DNA of 64,000 nucleotides from Roseomonas xinghualingensis (GTDB lineage: Bacteria > Pseudomonadota > Alphaproteobacteria > Acetobacterales > Acetobacteraceae). The stretch is taken from the NCBI RefSeq assembly GCF_025791835.1, contig NZ_JAOXLP010000004.1, positions 1 through 64,000 of the forward strand, written 5' to 3'. Position numbers and translations under genes: made by a program. The notes under the pieces are model-generated. The model worked only from the letters and a program-made list of their open reading frames with translations, was not told the origin of the DNA and ran no database searches. This document shows positions 53,973 to 58,840 of the stretch, one piece after another (positions within the stretch are counted from its first letter, which is position 1; each line of letters opens with the position of its first letter).

Positions 53973-55385
53973 CTACTTCGCCAAGGCCGGCGCGTTGCGC
54001 TCGCCGCAAGCCCAGCCATGGTTGTGCACCAGCCCATCGTCGTGATCGACAGGCTCGCCACCCACCCGCGGCGTCGGCCCTGCCTCGCCATGGAACTGCG
54101 CGGCCTCGGTGGAATGCTTCAGCGCGGTGGTGGAGGAACGCCCGCCGCTCGCCGCCGTCGCCACCGCGTCGAAATAACCCACGCCCACCTCGCGTTGGTG
54201 CCGCGTGGCGGTGTAGCCATCCGCCTCCGAGGCGAACTCCGCCTGCTGCAGCTCGGAATAGGCCGCCATCCCGCGCTCGCGATAACCTTTTGCCATCGTA
54301 AACATCGAATGGTTCAGGCTGTGGAAGCCGGCAAGCGTGATGAACTGGAACTTGTATCCCATCGCCGCGATCTCGACCTGGAACTTCGCGGCCTGCTCCT
54401 CACCCATCTTCCGCTTCCAGTTGAAGCTTGGCGAGCAGTTATAGGCGAGCAGCTTGCCCGGGAACTCGCGGTGGATCGCCTCGGCAAAGCGCCGCGCATC
54501 CTCCAGATCCGGATCGCTCGTTTCCCACCAAAGCAGATCGGCATAGGGCGCATAGGCAAGGCCACGCGCGATCGCGTAATCTTTGCCCACGCCCGGCTTG
54601 ATCCGGAAGAAACCCTCCGGTGTGCGCTCGCCGGAGATGAAGGGATGGTCCCGCTCATCCACGTCGCTGGTCAGAAGCTGCGCGCTCTCCGCATCCGTGC
54701 GGCACAACAGCACGGTCGGCACGCCCTCCACATCCGCCGCCAGCCGCGCGGCGTTCAGCGTGCGGATATGCTGGCTGATCGGCACCAGCACCTTGCCACC
54801 GAGATGCCCGCACTTCTTCTCGGATGCCAGCTGGTCCTCGAAATGCACGCCGGCCGCGCCCGCCTCGATCATCGCGCGCATCAGCTCATAGGCGTTCAGC
54901 GGGCCACCGAACCCGGCTTCCGCATCGGCGATGACCGGCGCCATCCAATGCGTCGTGTCGCCGCCTTCCTGCACCGCGATCTGATCGGCACGGCGCAGCG
55001 CCGCATTGATCCGCCGCACCACCTTCGGCACGGAATCCACCGGATAGAGAGACTGGTCCGGATACATCTCGCCAGCGGAGTTCGCATCCGCCGCCACCTG
55101 CCAGCCGGAGAGATAGATCGCCTTCAGCCCAGCTTTCACCTGCTGCAGTGCCTGGTTGCCCGTCAGCGCGCCGAGCGTCGGCACGAAAGGCTCGGAATGC
55201 AGCAACCGCCACAACCGCTCGGCGCCCATTTCGGCCAGGGTGTGGCGCACACGGAAGGAACCGGAGAGCCGCGCCACATCCCCGGGCGTGTAGTCGCGCC
55301 GGATGCCGGCGAAGCGATTGGGCTCGGCGGAGTGGCCGCTGGCGGAGCCATCAGGGGCGTAAGCCGGGTTCGTCTGCGAATGCAT
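53973..55385 (-). CDS. aceA: Isocitrate lyase
   Basis: A 470-residue isocitrate lyase, splitting isocitrate into succinate and glyoxylate in the glyoxylate cycle. The catalytic loop KKCGHLGG lies at residues 190-197, with [15 protein letters not shown] before it and [12 protein letters not shown] after it. The ATG at 55385 has AGGAGG seven bases upstream; a GTG one codon earlier (55388) is also possible. The gene is divergent from a RamB/ScfR-type regulator, and the 131-base gap contains TTTGC repeats that fit such a regulator. The terminator-like hairpin follows the stop. Confidence 0.96.
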
Positions 55386-55419
55386 CACTCATCCTCCTGC
55401 AATGAGTAAAGGATTGACA

Positions 55420-55503: not shown

Positions 55504-55518
55504 AAGGTTGTAAACCTT
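55504..55518. promoter_or_regulatory. Palindrome at the regulator start
   Basis: AAGGTT-GTA-AACCTT is a perfect 6-3-6 inverted repeat that covers the presumed TTG start codon (55517) and the AAGG ribosome binding site of the regulator gene. It could be an autoregulatory operator, or an RNA structure that limits translation. Confidence 0.45.
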
Positions 55519-56923
55519 GGCGCGTCCCATGATTGGCCGGGTGATCCGGCGGCTACGGCAGGAACGAGGCGTCACCCAGGCCGCCCTTGCCGCCCGCCTG
55601 GGCATCTCCGCCAGCTACATGAACCTGATCGAGGCTGATCAGCGCGCCATCACCGCCAGCCTGGTCTTCAAGCTGGCCGACGCCCTTTCCGTCGATCTCG
55701 CCCTCCTCTCCGGACAGGCTGAGGGCCGCCTGGAAGCCGGGCTACGCGAAGTCTTCCGCGACCCTCTCCTGGGCGCCGAATCCGTACCCGAGGAGCAGGC
55801 GGCCGCCCTCGTCGCCGCAGCCCCTGACGCCGCTCGCGCCATGCTCGCCCTATGGCGCGCATGGCGTGTCGCACGCGAGGATTCCGCTGGTCTCTCCCTG
55901 CCCTCCGGCCGCCGCCTGCTGCTACCCAGCGAGGAAGCGCGGGACGCCATCCACGATGCCGGCAACCACTTCCCCGCGCTGGAGGAGGTCGCCGAAACCC
56001 TGCGCGCGGCTATGGACGAACCATCCCCGCAATCCCTGGATCACGCCTTGGCGCATCGCCTGCACGCGCATCACGGCATCATTGTTTCGGTTGGCGTTCT
56101 CCCCGGTGCCGCGCTCCGCCGCTACGATGCCACCGCCGGCCAGCTCCTCATCAGCGAAACCCTTCCGCGCGAAAGCCGCAGCTTCCACATCGCCTTCACC
56201 CTGGCCTTGCTGGAGGCGCGGGATGCCGTGGAGCGCGTCATCGACGTCATCGGCCCCTCCAGCGAGGAAGCCGGCGCCATGCTCCGCATCGGCCTGCTGA
56301 ACTACGTGGCTGCCGCGGTCATGCTTCCCTACGCTCCCTTCCTCGCCGCGGCACGCTCCCTCCGCCACGACGTCGCTGCCCTCTCCGCCCGCTTCGCCGC
56401 CTCCTACGAGCAAACCTGTCACCGCCTCTCCACCTTGCAGCGGGAAGGCGCGCGCGGCGTGCCCTTCTTCTTCCTGCGCGTGGATCCGGCGGGAAATGTC
56501 TCGAAGCGCTTCTCGGCCGCCGGCTTTCCCTTCGCGCGCGGCGGCGGCTCCTGCCCGCGCTGGATTCCCCATGCCGCCTTCGCCACCCCCGGCCGCATCG
56601 TGGTGCAGGTGGCGGAACTACCCGACGGCGCCGCCTTCCTCTGCTTCGCCCGCACAGTGGAACACCCCGCAACCCGCTGGGGCGAACCCGCCCCCATGCG
56701 CGTCGTCGCCATGGGCTGCGGACTCAGCCACGCTTCGGAGGTCTGCTACGCGGATGGGCTGGATCTCGTCTCGGCCCGTGTCGGCATCGGCCTGTCCTGC
56801 CGCCTTTGCGACCGGCCGGACTGCCGCTCCCGTGCCTTTCCGCCGCTGGAGCACCGGCTGCAGCTCGATCCTGCCAAGGCCGGCGCGCCTTATGAATTCA
56901 CCCCGCATCCCGATGCAGGATAG
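55517..56923 (+). CDS. RamB/ScfR-type transcriptional regulator
   Basis: A 468-residue XRE-type regulator. The helix-turn-helix is at residues 7-60 (VTQAALAARLGISASYMNLI), then an ImmA/IrrE-like region, and a C-terminal DUF2083-type domain with a conserved cysteine cluster (CRLCDRPDCRSRAFPP). Actinobacterial RamB and proteobacterial ScfR have this layout and control acetate, propionate and glyoxylate genes in response to acyl-CoA. It is divergent from aceA, its likely target. Translation could begin at TTG 55517 (AAGG upstream) or at ATG 55529, which lacks a ribosome binding site. Confidence 0.88.
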   Translation: MARPMIGRVIRRLRQERGVTQAALAARLGISASYMNLIEADQRAITASLVFKLADALSVDLALLSGQAEGRLEAGLREVFRDPLLGAESVPEEQAAALVAAAPDAARAMLALWRAWRVAREDSAGLSLPSGRRLLLPSEEARDAIHDAGNHFPALEEVAETLRAAMDEPSPQSLDHALAHRLHAHHGIIVSVGVLPGAALRRYDATAGQLLISETLPRESRSFHIAFTLALLEARDAVERVIDVIGPSSEEAGAMLRIGLLNYVAAAVMLPYAPFLAAARSLRHDVAALSARFAASYEQTCHRLSTLQREGARGVPFFFLRVDPAGNVSKRFSAAGFPFARGGGSCPRWIPHAAFATPGRIVVQVAELPDGAAFLCFARTVEHPATRWGEPAPMRVVAMGCGLSHASEVCYADGLDLVSARVGIGLSCRLCDRPDCRSRAFPPLEHRLQLDPAKAGAPYEFTPHPDAG

Positions 56924-56926
56924 CGC

Positions 56927-57247
56927 CTACTCTCCCGAGGACAGCTTCAGCCCCACAAGCCCTGCCAGGATCAGCGCCGCGCTGCCGATCCGCATCAGCG
57001 ACACCGCCTCCCCCAGCACCACGATCCCTACGATGAAGGCGCCCAGCGCCCCGATGCCCGTCCAGATCGCATAGGCAGTGCCCAGTGGCAGGCTCCGCAT
57101 GGCCAGCGCCAGGAGCCAGAAGCTCGCCGCCATGGCGACAAGGGTAAAAATGGACCAGCCCAGGCGCGAGAATCCGTCCGAGGCCTTCAAGGCGAAGGCC
57201 CAGGCGATCTCCAGCAGCCCGGCGAAAACAAGATAGATCCAGGCCAT
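56927..57247 (-). CDS. sugE: SMR family guanidinium exporter SugE/Gdx
   Basis: A 106-residue protein with four membrane helices. The first helix has the conserved Glu in IYLVFAGLLEIAWAFALKA; SDGFSRL, LPLGTAYAIWTGIGALG and AALILAGLVGLKLS are typical of the SugE/Gdx subtype. Gdx proteins export guanidinium in exchange for protons. The ATG at 57247 follows AAGGGG; a TTG one codon earlier is less likely. Directly upstream lies a guanidine-II riboswitch (57269-57318), which makes the guanidinium-exporter identity very likely. Confidence 0.95.
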   Translation of the reverse strand: MAWIYLVFAGLLEIAWAFALKASDGFSRLGWSIFTLVAMAASFWLLALAMRSLPLGTAYAIWTGIGALGAFIVGIVVLGEAVSLMRIGSAALILAGLVGLKLSSGE

Positions 57248-57268
57248 CAAACGGCCCCTTCTCCTGGG

Positions 57269-57318
57269 GCCGGGCCGTCCCGGCGATCAATGGGATCGGC
57301 CGGGGGCCGTCCCCCGGC
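57269..57318 (-). ncRNA. Guanidine-II (mini-ykkC) riboswitch
   Basis: On the minus strand two consecutive hairpins have ACGG tetraloops. GCCGGGGG-ACGG-CCCCCGGC (57318-57299) has an 8-base stem, and GCCGGG-ACGG-CCCGGC (57284-57269) a 6-base stem, with 14 bases between. Two stem-loops with ACGR loops define the mini-ykkC class, which binds two guanidinium ions. The second hairpin ends 8 bases before the AAGGGG ribosome binding site of the Gdx-type gene, so guanidinium binding would free it for translation, as in characterised examples. The class is known; this instance is recognised here from sequence alone. Confidence 0.9.
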
Positions 57319-57359
57319 AGGCAGGTCAGGCGCGCATCGCGCCGCCCGCCGTCAAAACG

Positions 57360-57599
57360 TCAGTCGCAGTCGCAGCCCCGCGTCGGGCCGGGATCCACGC
57401 GCACGATGTGATGGTCGATCCATTCGGCTACGAGCCGCCGCGCTTCGGTCACGCTCGCCTCTGGGTGATGGATGCGATAAAGCGAGGTGCAGGCACCGAA
57501 GGCACTGAAATCATTCGTGCCCGCGTCCCGCAGCTCGCGATAGGCGGTCACCACGGCGCGCTCGCAATTGCGGGCGATGTAGCTGAAGTCCTGCCCCAT
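57360..57599 (-). CDS. Small conserved hypothetical protein
   Basis: A 79-residue cytoplasmic protein, MGQDFSYIARNCERAVVTAY at the start and TRGCDCD at the end. It contains FGACTSLYRIHHPEASVTEA and ARRLVAEWIDHH, and a closing CDC pair. I recognise it as the sort of short protein conserved in Acetobacteraceae but know no function. The long open frame upstream to 58523 is the shadow of the dehydrogenase gene. It lies 42 bases upstream of the riboswitch in the same direction, so it may read into it. Confidence 0.65.
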   Translation of the reverse strand: MGQDFSYIARNCERAVVTAYRELRDAGTNDFSAFGACTSLYRIHHPEASVTEARRLVAEWIDHHIVRVDPGPTRGCDCD

Positions 57600-57769
57600 C
57601 CGATCCAACCCCAATTCCGTGTTGCGGTGTTGTTGAGAATAACTCGCAACACTAGCCCGTTTTATAACGACACATGAACATCTATTCAAGTGTCGATTGA
57701 CGCGCCGCGGCGAGAGATCCCCTGGCTTGCCGGAGCACGACGGCTCCGGCCACCATGGGCAAACGCAGC

Positions 57770-58840
57770 CTATCCCCGCGCCACAGCCTCGGCCAGCGCT
57801 TTTCCAACCTCGACCGTTCCGGCATTGCCACCCAGGTCGCGCGTGCGCGGCCCGCCTTCGGCCAGAAGGGACTCGATGGCATGGGTGATGGCGTCCGCCG
57901 CGTCCTTCTCGCCCAGATGTTCCAGCATCAGCGCGCCGGACCAGATCTGCGCGATCGGGTTGGCCACCCCCTTCCCCGCGATATCCGGCGCGCTGCCATG
58001 CACCGGCTCGAACATGGAGGGATGCTTGCGCTCCGGATTGATGTTGGCCGAGGGCGCGATGCCGATCGAGCCCGCCACGGCCGGCCCGAGATCCGAGAGG
58101 ATGTCCCCGAACAGGTTGGAGCCCACCACCACGTCGAACCAGTCCGGATGCTGCACGAAATGCGCGCAGAGGATGTCGATGTGGAATTGGTCCGTCGTCA
58201 CCCCGGGATAGTTCTTCGCCATCTCGGCGAAGCGCTCGTCCCAGAAGGGCATGGTGAAGGTGATGCCGTTGGACTTGGTGGCGGAAGTTACCTTCTTCCG
58301 CGGCCGCTTCATCGCCAGTTCGAAGGCGTATTTCATCACACGGTCGCAGCCATGGCGCGTGAAGACGCTCTCCTGGCTGACGAACTCCCGCTCGGTGCCC
58401 CGGAACATCCGGCCGCCGGAGGAGGAATACTCGCCCTCCGTGTTCTCGCGCACCACGACGAAGTCGATGTCCTCCGGCCCACGATTCGCCAGCGGGGAGC
58501 GCACTCCCGGCATCAGCCGGCACGGCCGCAGGGAGATGTACTGGTCGAACTCCCGCCGCATCGGGATCAGCAGGCCCCAGAGCGAGATATGGTCCGGTAC
58601 CCCCGGCCAGCCCACCGCGCCCAGGAACACGCTGTCCGACTCGCGCAACCGGTCCAGCCCGTCATCCGGCATCATCTTGCCGGTCTGGGCATAGGTCTCG
58701 CAGGACCAGTCATAGTGGGTCAGCTGCAGCTCGAAGCCGAAGCGGCGGGCGGCGGCATCCAGCACCCGCAACCCCTCCGGCGTCGTCTCCTTGCCGATTC
58801 CGTCGCCCGGGATCACTGCGATCCGATGGGTGCGCGCCAT
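57770..58840 (-). CDS. Tartrate/D-malate-type dehydrogenase
   Basis: A 356-residue beta-decarboxylating dehydrogenase of the isocitrate/isopropylmalate dehydrogenase family. HRIAVIPGDGIGKETTPEG, the substrate loop QYISLRPCRLMPGVRSPL, VVVRENTEGEYSS, the metal site DILCAHFVQHPDWFD-like and GSNLFGDILSDLG, and MFEPVHGSAPDIAGKG are visible. RPCRLMPGV is the form found in tartrate dehydrogenase and D-malate dehydrogenase rather than in leuB or icd. The ATG at 58840 follows AAGGT. It oxidises a 2-hydroxy dicarboxylate to pyruvate or a related acid with NAD. Isopropylmalate dehydrogenase is less likely, since no leu genes are near. Confidence 0.92.
   Translation of the reverse strand: MARTHRIAVIPGDGIGKETTPEGLRVLDAAARRFGFELQLTHYDWSCETYAQTGKMMPDDGLDRLRESDSVFLGAVGWPGVPDHISLWGLLIPMRREFDQYISLRPCRLMPGVRSPLANRGPEDIDFVVVRENTEGEYSSSGGRMFRGTEREFVSQESVFTRHGCDRVMKYAFELAMKRPRKKVTSATKSNGITFTMPFWDERFAEMAKNYPGVTTDQFHIDILCAHFVQHPDWFDVVVGSNLFGDILSDLGPAVAGSIGIAPSANINPERKHPSMFEPVHGSAPDIAGKGVANPIAQIWSGALMLEHLGEKDAADAITHAIESLLAEGGPRTRDLGGNAGTVEVGKALAEAVARG

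Follow-up and report, generated by a model that had tools for sequence, protein, structure and literature searches.

A very probable Guanidine-II riboswitch before a predicted guanidinium exporter gene in Roseomonas xinghualingensis, with a candidate hairpin that may mask the ribosome-binding site

Genes at the sugE locus

The window analysed here, i.e., a stretch of 64,000 nucleotides (nt) of DNA from Roseomonas xinghualingensis, carries the following genes around the sequence of interest:

53973-55388, minus strand: open reading frame resembling isocitrate lyase, as judged by eye
55517-56923, plus strand: gene for a RamB/ScfR-like regulator (PF09856 and PF06114; RamB model 399.7 bits, under its cut-off of 700)
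56927-57247, minus strand: sugE/gdx gene of 106 amino acids, with an ATG start and a TAG stop (PRK11431.1, PF00893, PDB 6wk5)
57360-57599, minus strand: gene for a 79-amino-acid protein, function unassigned (searches of NCBIfam and Pfam both without a match at E <= 0.001)
57770-58840, minus strand: tartrate dehydrogenase gene, upstream of the 79-amino-acid gene (TIGR02089, 570.2 bits, cut-off 470.4)

An earlier note on this DNA had described a SugE/Gdx-type gene behind a pair of hairpins, and protein comparisons agreed with this description. The product of 56927-57247 passed the curated NCBIfam model PRK11431.1 with 131.8 bits (cut-off 126), and none of the 20 other NCBIfam models listed for it, EmrE and Qac included, reached its own cut-off. 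The protein was assigned to Pfam family PF00893, and its best match among solved structures was 6wk5_B, named as an SMR-family protein, which we take to be Gdx-Clo, a guanidinium exporter. Six residues of 6wk5 that are presumably important in Gdx (G10, E13, W16, S42, Y59, W62) were all identical in the SugE protein. The gene product is thus a SugE/Gdx-type protein, predicted from these sequence matches to export guanidinium.

The RamB/ScfR-like gene is convergent with sugE, only 3 nt separating their stops; relative to the open reading frame at 53973-55388 it is divergent. On the other side of sugE, the 79-amino-acid protein had 1133 relatives in a protein search; among the 120 matches listed, those with an organism name came from Roseomonas and other Acetobacteraceae genera. 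By coordinates, its gene adjoins sugE upstream in 11 of the 15 genomes of the genus, and in these syntenic genomes the protein ends in a GC[DE]CD motif. A general link of this gene to guanidine was considered and is unsupported, because the gene lies apart from sugE in the remaining 4/15 genomes. Directly after its stop codon we observed a stem at 57320-57350 on the minus strand, which differs in sequence among relatives and has no T-run here. This stretch was more stable than 95% of its shuffles in 5/8 riboswitch-bearing genomes and in 0/3 of those lacking the riboswitch; it is possibly a 3'-end or processing element.

Identification of a Guanidine-II riboswitch

When the sequence was read on the minus strand, two perfect hairpins, both with ACGG loops, were found at 57269-57318, exactly at the coordinates and with the stem lengths (8 and 6 bases) that the earlier note had given. 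The elements between the 79-amino-acid gene and sugE to which we refer below are as follows:

57299-57318, minus strand: hairpin P1, with arms 57318-57311 and 57306-57299 (8 pairs) and loop ACGG at 57310-57307
57285-57298, minus strand: P1-P2 linker of 14 nt, poorly conserved in the genus alignment
57269-57284, minus strand: hairpin P2, with arms 57284-57279 and 57274-57269 (6 pairs) and loop ACGG at 57278-57275
57252-57272, minus strand: candidate OFF hairpin P3, in which CGGCCCC (57272-57266) pairs with GGGGCCG (57258-57252)
57255-57258, minus strand: likely Shine-Dalgarno (SD) sequence GGGG, 7 nt ahead of the ATG

The proposed Guanidine-II (mini-ykkC) identity held up in the search with the Rfam covariance model that had been suggested for it. 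Model RF01068 matched 57270-57318 with 47.2 bits, compared with a gathering score of 32, and an E-value of 3.1e-6 calculated over the entire 64,000-nt window and 4227 Rfam families. Only one other match in the window, a tRNA, reached its gathering score in the search against these families. No other place in the 4.88 Mb genome matched at E <= 0.001, in a search that scored 150 of 1211 first-look candidates, and a genome search found no Guanidine-I riboswitch in R. xinghualingensis. The features of the Guanidine-II class were found together at this site, i.e., two hairpins with G+C-rich stems and ACGR tetraloops, compensatory changes (in P1), and an aptamer that precedes a guanidine-related gene and its ribosome-binding site. 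The ATG of sugE (57247) stands 22 nt beyond the last base matched by the model (57270).

Conservation was assessed on an alignment of the eight riboswitch-bearing members of the genus. Four of the eight P1 pairs had changed on both sides, and for P1 and P2 together 10 cells had changed on both sides, compared with a mean of 3.6 in shuffles and with 0/500 shuffles reaching as high a count. All 10 of these cells fell in P1. In P2, 47/48 cells were paired, five of the six pairs were invariant and the sixth varied by one unpaired cell only, so that 0/6 pairs had changed on both sides; covariation is uninformative for P2 because the hairpin is nearly invariant. ACG-type loops were kept in all eight members.

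These data bear on whether the hairpins are simply a G+C-rich inverted pair that arose by chance, or a remnant that no longer functions. The stability of a 101-nt fold around the aptamer was ordinary for such G+C-rich sequence (z -1.10; 30/200 shuffles folded equally well), and the element is missing from three syntenic sister loci, both of which would fit such an origin. The E-value of the RF01068 match, the covariation in P1 and the retention of the loops argue against it, and we consider it extremely improbable. The case that the aptamer is more than chance is carried by the family match and the P1 covariation, not by raw stability.

The earlier note had also placed the hairpins directly before a ribosome-binding site, and this placement was borne out, although the note had not named the bases. 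An AGGAG at 57265-57261 on the minus strand stands 13 nt from the ATG and, among the eight aligned members, occurs in R. xinghualingensis only; on these grounds it was rejected as the ribosome-binding site. The ribosome-binding sequence is likely to be the GGGG at 57258-57255, invariant in all eight.

Control at the level of transcription, by attenuation or Rho, would be another way for this leader to act. No direct support for it was found; a stem does follow the upstream gene in several genomes. A simple consensus scan found no terminator-like site in 56500-57900, which fits translational control, and the class is described in the excerpted text of PMC9561414 as exclusively translational. 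We regard transcriptional control as very improbable. Taken together, 57269-57318 on the minus strand is with high probability a Guanidine-II (mini-ykkC) riboswitch exerting ON control of sugE. It is a clean yet ordinary example of a well-known class, whose ligand, guanidine, is toxic.

A candidate OFF hairpin overlapping P2

The candidate hairpin P3 would pair the GGGG with a strand whose first four bases, 57272-57269, also belong to the P2 3' arm; P2 and P3 are mutually exclusive because P3 reuses these bases. Across the eight genus members, 47/48 cells of the six-pair core of P3 were paired, and the GGCCCC and GGGGCC arms were kept with the exception of one base in one member (L020), the intervening 7 nt being variable. 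As isolated hairpins in R. xinghualingensis, P2 and P3 had close energies (-11.4 and -12.1 kcal/mol, respectively). In free minimum-energy folds of the leader, run from P1 to 12 nt past the start, P3 was present in 7/8 members (with 5 pairs in L020) and absent in one (L002). The stretch from the P2 3' arm to the start codon was matched in stability by only 8/500 spacer shuffles in R. xinghualingensis, and its energy was below that of 95% of shuffles in 5/8 genus rows and 6/23 rows outside the genus.

Several results run the other way. None of the P3 pairs had changed on both sides in the eight members, and P3 is for this reason without support from covariation. The 101-nt minimum-energy fold formed P1 and P2 and not P3, with GGG paired to the start-codon region. 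Stems of the size of P3 that touch both P2 and the GGGG arose in 88/2000 shuffles for R. xinghualingensis and in up to 891/2000 (L020). When P1 and P2 were forced in the R. xinghualingensis leader, the unpaired share of the GGGG rose only from 0.07 to 0.17; across the eight members it rose in six (by 0.02 to 0.32), stayed at 0 in L002 and fell in L020.

A wider set of loci was then considered. It comprised 49 aptamer loci (L001-L049), apart from 12 further places of the class-wide search. An SMR gene was recognized in 29 of the 49 by motif and in two more by eye, giving 31 loci and leaving the other 18 aside. Enrichment across the class of SD hairpins that use the P2 arm was not supported, with 23/31 observed and 23.6 expected from shuffles when all 31 loci were counted. 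The idea that aptamer formation frees the SD across the class was likewise not supported: with P1 and P2 forced, the unpaired share of the SD went up in 9, was equal in 5 and went down in 15 of 29 loci (R. xinghualingensis, 0.27 to 0.34). In this latter calculation the stretch was longer, the SD window was selected by its score, and 2/31 rows (L006 and L020) were left out. Folding calculated without ligand energies thus did not show a clear switch, and lends the idea of switching little or no support.

The same riboswitch could hide its SD in other ways, with P3 being incidental. The SD might be masked by the 5' flank, in a P0 helix, or by an anti-SD in the linker; either possibility is compatible with the class and competes with P3 alone. 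The 101-nt minimum-energy fold in fact pairs CCUG before P1 with CAGG after P2 in a P0-like manner, and mutations in a putative P0 held the P. aeruginosa switch ON (PMC9561414, in part). In our alignment, inspected by eye, the CAGG partner is however found in R. xinghualingensis only among the eight members; this P0 helix was rejected, appearing in the 101-nt fold yet not being kept in relatives. As for the linker, which holds a putative anti-SD in E. coli according to part of PMC9094411, a CCC could be counted in 5/8 genus members on the alignment, but by eye it stands at differing columns and is missing in three of them (L016, L017 and L020), whereas the P3 arms are kept in all eight but for the single base noted above. 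We consider masking by P0 or the linker unlikely, though well within reason.

P3 is a plausible OFF state masking the GGGG in this lineage, and we regard the case for it as evenly balanced. Should it form, P2 may be frozen in sequence because its 3' arm serves two helices, P2 and P3.

Distribution in the genus and absence from sister species

At E <= 0.001, RF01068 was found in 8/15 genomes of the genus (7 over the cut-off), in 14/150 genomes sampled from the family (13 over the cut-off) and in 39/385 genomes from the class (35 over the cut-off). Each of these counts includes R. xinghualingensis; for the family and the class, filtering was stricter, at the cost of weak matches. All eight riboswitches of the genus lie directly before a sugE.

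In 8/11 syntenic genomes the riboswitch stands between the 79-amino-acid gene and sugE; it is absent from the other three (G150, G158 and G160), at whose sugE loci no Rfam match was found at E <= 1. In one of these (G158) the two genes are only 19 nt apart. In the other two (G150 and G160) they are separated by 73 nt, which carry another stem structure. These 73 nt (loci L056 and L060) hold a G+C-rich stem enclosed in a long inverted repeat, with a TTTTCT run; taken alone, the stability of the repeat was not significant, with 44 and 52 of 500 shuffles being as stable. The repeat is perhaps another control element where the riboswitch is missing. For the three sister species as a whole, loss of the riboswitch would be a simpler reading than its late gain. 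In the remaining four genomes of the genus, the closest sugE was 56-59% identical and lay elsewhere in the genome, and no Rfam match was found around it at E <= 1.

These observations lead us to a tentative proposal, which we hold at slightly less than even confidence. In this Roseomonas lineage the 3' arm of P2 would double as part of the anti-SD strand (P3), which would keep the sequence of P2 frozen and leave P1 to drift; in three sister species the whole switch would have disappeared from this position or given way to something else.

Discussion

The mechanism that we propose would proceed as follows. In the absence of guanidine, the GGGG ribosome-binding sequence would be hidden, most likely in P3, whose 5' arm takes four bases of P2. 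Guanidinium would bind both ACGG loops, upon which P1 and P2 would dock; P2 would be held shut, and P3 would lose its outer four pairs. The ribosome could then start on sugE, turning on translation of the exporter gene. That the class binds guanidinium, docks its loops and acts as an ON switch of translation is taken from those parts of the literature that are cited here. What this locus itself contributes is the identity of the aptamer, the family of the gene, the covariation in P1 and the finding that the sequences of P2 and P3 overlap.

The present analysis adds three points, namely which bases are likely to bind the ribosome, P3 as a candidate hairpin, and a patchy distribution of the riboswitch across the genus. 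In a literature search we found no mention of a guanidine riboswitch in Roseomonas. It provides one further well-supported case for the class of about 800 (PMC5486947, in part) and suggests that in this lineage an RNA controls the detoxification of guanidine. Should P3 prove real, the eight genomes with the switch and the three without it at the same place form a compact natural series, in which it could be seen how one hairpin arm serves both ligand binding and masking of the ribosome site.

The riboswitch resembles other members of the RF01068 class, e.g., that of E. coli sugE, in that a SugE-type gene is preceded by two hairpins, both rich in G+C and closed by ACGR loops. As set out in the excerpts of Huang et al. 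(2017; PMC5486947), the class has ACGR loops, its roughly 800 examples lie near ribosome-binding sites, and most of its spacers are at least 13 nt long, lengths that the 14-nt linker fits. Whereas the E. coli anti-SD is thought to lie in the linker (PMC9094411, in part), here the linker is unconserved among genus members, and it is 3' of the aptamer that the candidate OFF hairpin lies. The P. aeruginosa switch, in which initiation of translation depends on guanidine and a putative P0 helix, joining the 5' flank to the 3' flank, is proposed to hide the SD (from sections of PMC9561414), is likewise a translational ON switch of a multidrug-type exporter. ON control is predicted for our locus, but the P0-like pairing of the 101-nt fold is not kept in the genus. 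A parallel to P3 is found in Gloeobacter violaceus, for which a stem-loop has been proposed that would overlap both P2 and the ribosome-binding site and exclude the folded riboswitch (PMC5486947, same excerpts). That organism belongs to another lineage and its stem is called putative; as this overlap was proposed earlier, the idea of P3 has a precedent within the class.
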